From NCBI GenBank assembly GCA_023250995.1, contig JAHEZO010000013.1, positions 1-33,509 of the forward strand: a stretch of 33,509 nucleotides of DNA, given 5' to 3'. How positions within the stretch are numbered: position 1 is the first letter of the stretch; each line of letters opens with the position of its first letter. Both the position numbers and the translations under genes were made by a program. Of the stretch, positions 2,954 through 11,566 are shown one piece after another. This DNA is from Flavobacteriales bacterium (GTDB lineage: Bacteria > Bacteroidota > Bacteroidia > Flavobacteriales_H > JAHEZO01). The notes beneath the pieces were generated by a model. It had not been told where the DNA came from. It saw only the letters and a program-made list of their open reading frames with translations, and made no database searches.

Positions 2954-2982
2954 CAGGTTTTGGGTTTAAGTTAATTGGTTAA

Positions 2983-3039
2983 GGGTATGGGGTATATGGT
3001 TTATGGTATAAGGTATATGGTATAGGGTATAGGGTATAA
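2983..3039. repeat. Degenerate ggtata/gggtata tandem repeat
   Basis: Short units of the form gggtata, ggtatat and ggtataa are repeated about seven times in the accA-ispE spacer, ending 44 bp before the accA start codon. The units differ in length (6-8 bp), so this is a decayed simple repeat, not a CRISPR or an iteron array of fixed period. It would be transcribed in the accA leader if the box at 3100 is used. No function can be read from it. Confidence 0.8.
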
Positions 3040-3107: not shown

Positions 3108-3145
3108 GAAAGTCGCATTTTAGGGATCTATTCATTTTGTGATTT

Positions 3146-3170
3146 AAACTATAAACTATAAACTATAAAC
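3146..3170. repeat. aaactat x3 heptanucleotide repeat
   Basis: Three perfect copies of AAACTAT followed by AAAC lie in the same spacer, about 80 bp before the ispE start. It is a second simple 7-bp repeat close to the ggtata tract. The 276 bp between accA and ispE otherwise hold no convincing gene. Confidence 0.85.
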
Positions 3171-3247
3171 CTTAAATTATTTAAGAAATTTTTTTCTTCT
3201 TTTGTTTTGGTGGTTTAAACTTTTCATTTTTGTACTTTAATTTTTTT

Positions 3248-10187: not shown

Positions 10188-10209
10188 GGGTGAATGGAAG
10201 GGGGGAAAG

Positions 10210-10307
<98 letters not shown>

Positions 10308-10596
10308 GGAAAAAACAATTGGTTTGAGTAGATAATTAGCCTGTTATAAGGAAATAGCAAAAAGGGTTAGTGAAATTAAGAATATGTTTTTGATTTTAAT
10401 GCAAGAGAGGCTTGAAAAAAAGTTGCTAAAACCATGATTCAGAAAATAAAATTCATTCGGAATATTTTTGAATAATTCCTTGATTTTTAATCTAGATTCC
10501 TTCCCTTTGAATTTTTTTTAATTTATTATCCGGAGTTTTTCATAAAATCAAAGCTCAAATACAGATTTTTGTTATGAAATTAAAGCCACTAAAACG
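10308..10596. other. Gene-free AT-rich spacer
   Basis: Between the minisatellite and the palindromic element I see no ORF with coding character, no tRNA-like fold and no promoter pair of note on either strand. The stretch is AT-rich and has stops in all frames at short distance. A degraded gene cannot be excluded without a similarity search. Confidence 0.6.
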
Positions 10597-10744
10597 ATAA
10601 AACCATTCAGACATATAAAACAATCTTTTCCTACCCGCACCCTTTAATCCTTAAGGGATCAACGCTTAAGAGTAGGTGGGGTGGTCCCTTCAGGGATAAA
10701 GGGTTGGAAGGAAGAAATTAAAATAAATGTCTAAATGGTATAAA
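10597..10744. mobile_element. MITE-like palindromic element with 5-bp flanking direct repeat
   Basis: The segment 10602-10739 folds back on itself. The left arm (10602-10660) begins ACCATTCAGACAT and the reverse complement of the right arm (10683-10739) begins ACCATTTAGACAT. About 43 of 57 positions match over the whole arm, including ACCCTTTA and AAGGGA, around a loop of about 22 nt. It is flanked on both sides by ATAAA (10597-10601 and 10740-10744), as a target-site duplication would be. There is no coding capacity, so any movement would need a transposase in trans. Other readings are a large transcription terminator or REP-like hairpin; AT-rich flanks make a chance 5-bp match possible. Confidence 0.6.
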
Positions 10745-10820
10745 ACACAAAATCCTGCTAAAAATTTTTGAGGGATTTAGAGATTTTGTTTTTTTTGTGG
10801 CAAGATAAAAAATGTTACTT

Positions 10821-10852
10821 TTTGTTTTTCAGAATGATATTTTTTACTTTTT
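10821..10852 (+). promoter_or_regulatory. Promoter candidate of tsaB
   Basis: TTTG (10821-10824) is followed after 20 nt by TACTTTTT (10845-10852). The spacing matches the Bacteroidota pattern and the -7 box misses only the last base. The ATG of tsaB is 24 bp downstream. Confidence 0.45.
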
Positions 10853-10876
10853 CCAAAACTCACTTTAATAATAATA

Positions 10877-11566
10877 ATGGCTCTGATTCTTAATATTGAA
10901 ACCTCGGGAAGGGCCTGTTCAGTGGCCCTTGGAAAGGACGGTAATCTTATTGCCCTGAAAGAATCGGTAGAAGAAAATTATTCCCATTTTGAAAACCTAA
11001 CTGCTTATATCCATGATGTTTTTAATCAGGCAAATCTCAAAATTAAAGATATTGATGCAGTATCGGTTAGCAAAGGGCCGGGGTCGTACACAGGTTTAAG
11101 GATCGGGGTTTCGGCTGCTAAAGGAATTTGCTTTGCATTGGATAAACCTTTAATCGGGGTTGAGACTCTCAGGGGAATGGCCCGATCACAAATGAAATAT
11201 TTTCCCGAAAAATCTTTTTTGCTTTGCCCTATGCTTGATGCCCGGAGAATGGAAGTGTATTGTGCGGTTTATAATCCTTCGCTTGTGGAAATTAAAAAAA
11301 CAACGGCTGAAATAATTGATGAAAATTCATTTGAGGATATCCTTCTGAAAAATGTGATTCTCTTTTTTGGAGATGGGGCTGAGAAATGCAAAAAATTTCT
11401 TGGTGAAAATCCAAATGCGAAATTTCTTGATTTTGTTTTTCCTTCAGCCCGGAATTTAATTTCGCTTTCAGAGGAATTGTTTAATTCAAAAAAGTTTGAA
11501 GATGTTGCTTATTTCGAACCTTTTTACCTGAAGGATTTTGTTGGAACAAAAAGCGTTGGAGAATAA
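10877..11566 (+). CDS. tsaB: tRNA threonylcarbamoyladenosine biosynthesis protein TsaB
   Basis: TsaB is the ASKHA-fold partner of TsaD. With TsaE it supports transfer of threonylcarbamoyl to A37 of ANN-decoding tRNAs in the cytoplasm. The 229-residue protein opens MALILNIETSGRACSVAL and has the family signature SKGPGSYTGLRIGVSAAKG, followed by MLDARRMEVYCAVY. The length matches the family. It is isolated on the plus strand after a non-coding stretch. Its stop codon (11564-11566) directly abuts the stop codon of the convergent gene, leaving no intergenic base for a terminator. Confidence 0.95.
   Translation: MALILNIETSGRACSVALGKDGNLIALKESVEENYSHFENLTAYIHDVFNQANLKIKDIDAVSVSKGPGSYTGLRIGVSAAKGICFALDKPLIGVETLRGMARSQMKYFPEKSFLLCPMLDARRMEVYCAVYNPSLVEIKKTTAEIIDENSFEDILLKNVILFFGDGAEKCKKFLGENPNAKFLDFVFPSARNLISLSEELFNSKKFEDVAYFEPFYLKDFVGTKSVGE

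Follow-up and report, generated by a model that had tools for sequence, protein, structure and literature searches.

The window, that is, the whole stretch of 33,509 nt of DNA analysed here, carries a near-palindromic element ahead of a gene at 10877-11566 (ATG at 10877) that matches PF00814 and is consistent with tsaB. The element sits within a second dispersed repeat, which we call repeat B, so that the two parts of repeat B frame it on either side (Table 1). Further upstream, a minisatellite at 10203-10312, made of about 16 copies of the 7-bp unit GGGAAAT, directly follows an HlyD-type efflux gene, and other short tandem arrays occur in the window at 2976-3038 and 3144-3180 (AGGGTAT and TAAACTA units).

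The preliminary description had proposed a palindrome of 138 bp (10602-10739) with a 5-bp flanking repeat, ATAAA. The palindrome itself was borne out, as its arms genuinely pair: alignment of the two arms over their outermost 65 bases scores 23, against a mean of -9.2 in 2000 shuffles (sd 4.4, maximum 9), and the region folded as single-stranded DNA gives z = -4.8, with none of 200 shuffles equally good. Pairing of the arms extends over about 60 bp once a gap of 2 bp is introduced, the ungapped match being just 30/59. The proposed boundaries had to be moved, and the exact limits of the element, which is 140 bp long and has no coding capacity, were set by comparing the copies of its family. Similarly, the flanking direct repeat is present but is better taken as 3 bp long, TAA; the wider ATAAA, which takes in neighbouring A's, is partly a matter of chance, because empty copies of repeat B read C-TAA-AAC or similar at that place.

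Table 1. Coordinates of the element, its ends and the surrounding repeat B in the window
Feature	Position	Strand	Remarks
Left part of interrupted repeat B	10513..10600	+	Positions 134-221 of the joined flanks aligned with uninterrupted B copies; C330:10538-10603
Left target-site duplication, TAA	10598..10600	.	
MITE copy, near-palindromic over its whole length	10601..10740	.	140 bp; ~89.5% identity to the family consensus (143 bp)
Left terminal inverted repeat, AACCATTCAGACA	10601..10613	+	2 mismatches to the consensus TACCATTTAGACA
Right terminal inverted repeat, TGTCTAAATGGTA	10728..10740	-	0 mismatches to the consensus
Right target-site duplication, TAA	10741..10743	.	
Right part of interrupted repeat B, ending just before the putative tsaB	10744..10862	+	Alignment to B copies

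A dispersed family and its target sites

In the draft genome to which the window belongs (3.6 Mb in 341 contigs, 92% complete), a search revealed copies of the element at about 40 distinct places, 33 of them near full length, and the identity of most copies to the family consensus of 143 bp is 85-97%. Well-kept copies start with TACCATTTAGACA and finish with TGTCTAAATGGTA, these 13-bp inverted ends being common to the family. There are also partial copies (C71, C275, C94, C273 and C10), an internally deleted form of 96 bp (C237, L039), and two MITE copies split by about 100-190 bp of other DNA (C283, L032, 10633-10906; C197, L037, 393-720), which perhaps represents insertions of other small repeats. 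Two near-full-length copies located at contig ends (C77:3047, L013; C286:4841, L016) may be a single locus divided by the assembler, because their flanks are identical on both sides.

Directly outside the ends stands TTA or TAA, and an exact 3-bp direct repeat is present in 21 of the 33 copies tested, a number that was reached in 4 of 100,000 trials when the right flanks were permuted among copies. Where TWA stands on both sides the duplication is exact in 21 of 22 copies (12 TTA/TTA and 9 TAA/TAA, with one conflict). Exact duplication is absent from 12 copies, most of which are diverged and off by one base. The duplication has the 3-bp TNA form of IS5/IS1031-derived elements (TTA and TAA; compared with PMC12016507). 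Several copies with differing flanks, expected if the palindrome is mobile as earlier suggested, were therefore found, each place with its own TTA or TAA duplication where this is preserved.

Outside this genome no copy was found in the 60 relatives searched, in the order (one other genome), in 295 genomes of the class (end pattern, three mismatches allowed), or in public genome contigs (exact patterns), viral contigs, phages and plasmids, the public collections possibly lacking the records closest to the window's genome. Since the nearest genome compared shares only the order, this absence says little about the genus. The situation that would have spoken for a terminator or regulatory RNA in the preliminary description, the retention of just one copy ahead of tsaB across relatives, was not seen.

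Empty sites in repeat B

When the window flanks were rejoined with one TAA, they aligned straight across the junction to nine uninterrupted copies of repeat B, all from the own draft genome (L097, L090, L092, L093, L098, L096, L095, L010 and L091), at about 76-84% identity; in these copies the junction is mostly a single TAA, in the form CGC-TAA-AAC or close variants. A second case is independent of the first: in C195, the MITE copy L021 interrupts another copy of repeat B, its target being a different one, GGGAT-TTA-GAG, and its flanks rejoined with one TTA fit the B consensus. The 96-bp copy of C237 occupies the corresponding TAA in a degenerate stretch resembling repeat B, with a weaker alignment. 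These related empty sites, which had been anticipated in relatives and are present in the same genome, directly record insertion accompanied by the duplication of 3 bp, and constitute the decisive evidence.

The family is thus short, non-coding and multi-copy, with terminal inverted repeats at its boundary, a fixed 3-bp TWA duplication and an empty site with a single copy of the target, as defines a MITE. We conclude that the palindrome is almost certainly a MITE, one copy of a dispersed gene-less family with shared ends, TWA duplications and empty targets, in agreement with the non-autonomous element first proposed.

Repeat B is about 181 bp long, with the palindromic core GCCACTAAATC...GATTTAGAG...TTTGTGGC, and has roughly 20 copies in the own draft genome, further ones including C321:903-1079, C331:1768-1947 and C212:48608-48762. 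The core recurs in other families of the class (14 matches in genome G006, 27 in G008 and 6 in G026). Of the roughly 40 MITE copies, about six are located within a B copy or immediately next to one (C330, C195, C237, C272, C222 and C5). This association seemingly exceeds the small share of the genome that repeat B occupies; it could reflect a target preference, or both repeats could be tolerated in the same gaps.

Candidate movers

The presumed mover is a DDE transposase that was encoded elsewhere and is now lost or missing from the draft; it would have bound the ends and transferred the element in a cut-and-paste manner, with cuts staggered by 3 bp. After insertion the copies would have drifted, surviving mostly in gaps between genes. 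In the own draft genome there was no match to the transposase domains PF01609, PF13359, PF13586 and PF13612, and no IS5-type or IS982-type transposase. Lone ends were considered as remains of an autonomous parent (C71, C275, C94, C219 and others), and in this genome they turned out to be half copies, diverged copies or fortuitous matches, and no transposase was seen to adjoin them. With 341 contigs and a completeness of 92%, the draft could have missed the parent IS; draft assemblies often lose mobile elements.

Strict TWA is the target of PIF/Harbinger (PMC4482050) and a 3-bp TNA that of the IS1031-group elements of IS5 (PMC12016507), so our best guess is that the mover would be an IS5-family enzyme of the IS1031 group, related to PIF/Harbinger; the IS1031-group ends given in PMC12016507 are unlike those of the MITE. 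The same MITE might instead have been moved by an enzyme from another family with 3-bp duplications, which would change the mover only and leave the MITE claim untouched, and this we consider unlikely although far from negligible. Relatives of IS3/IS150, IS30 and IS982 can make duplications of about 3 bp, and the own draft genome has a single gene with an rve domain (PF00665; C135, L127), but around this gene there was no convincing pair of matching ends, the best having 3 mismatches of 13. The MITE of Cardinium does derive from IS982 (PMC9769881), whereas the draft has no IS982-type gene and the strict TWA is typical of PIF/Harbinger, as TNA is of IS1031-type enzymes.

The hairpin and its relation to known elements

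Folded as RNA, the family consensus forms one long hairpin of -76 kcal/mol, and the copies, nearly all of them intergenic, are found between convergent genes more often than between divergent ones (9 versus 2), as might be expected of a structured regulatory RNA, an attenuator or a bidirectional terminator kept here by selection. However, covariation over the 54 consensus pairs was not above that of shuffles (both-side changes numbered 4, the shuffled mean being 6.4), in a control that takes no account of relatedness and so would, if anything, make covariation easier to find, and the paired cells of the consensus stem were 86.7% versus 86.9% in shuffles; therefore there is no sign of selection on RNA holding the hairpin. 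The element had no Rfam family at gathering score and no terminator-like site, its target duplications and empty sites demonstrate insertion, and no copy was found in the 60 relatives searched. Together with the near-total intergenic spread, these results led us to reject a conserved RNA or terminator, which is very improbable; the intergenic placement with its convergent bias would fit the removal of harmful insertions. An element of REP or PATE type, with a single-strand transposase (Y1, IS200/IS605-type) as its mover, would share the full-length palindrome, the intergenic location and the many copies, but Y1 elements make no target duplication and here TWA is duplicated on both sides of matching inverted ends at the boundary, so that the REP-like family named as an alternative in the preliminary description is contradicted and retains hardly any probability.

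As a MITE, the family resembles those of other prokaryotes (reviewed in PMC10969869) in that it is short and gene-less, is bounded by terminal inverted repeats, duplicates its target, occurs in many intergenic copies and has long hairpin potential, whereas neither its sequence nor its ends had a match in the searched collections, and the draft yielded no parent IS. In Porphyromonas gingivalis, BrickBuilt and MITE239 (PMC4596501) are likewise intergenic MITEs of a Bacteroidota genome with long stem-loops, and their ends match IS5-family elements; BrickBuilt, however, has 4-bp duplications (GAAA, AAAA) and GAGACC-type ends, in contrast to the 3-bp TWA and TACCATTTAGACA of the window family, which is without an internal minisatellite. 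MITECca01 of Cardinium (PMC9769881) is also very numerous in one genome and mostly intergenic or within other repeats, but its parent IS982 element is present. With the IS1031 group of IS5 and PIF/Harbinger, the family shares the 3-bp TNA/TWA target duplication (PMC12016507, PMC4482050), and differs in its ends from those quoted for the IS1031 group and in the lack of such a transposase in the draft.

The MITE family itself is new and of a well-known kind. More tentatively, it is possible, though less likely than not, that this is a lineage-restricted family whose bacterial transposase had a strict PIF/Harbinger-like TWA target and unfamiliar ends, with one dispersed palindromic repeat preferred as a landing place. 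The ends, the target and the empty sites of a MITE family were derived here from one draft genome, in a lineage that would, judging by its genes, be Bacteroidota-like and that had few related genomes for comparison, and a dispersed palindromic repeat such as repeat B, found in several families of the class, can act as an internal record of insertion. Biologically, the family is ordinary selfish DNA.
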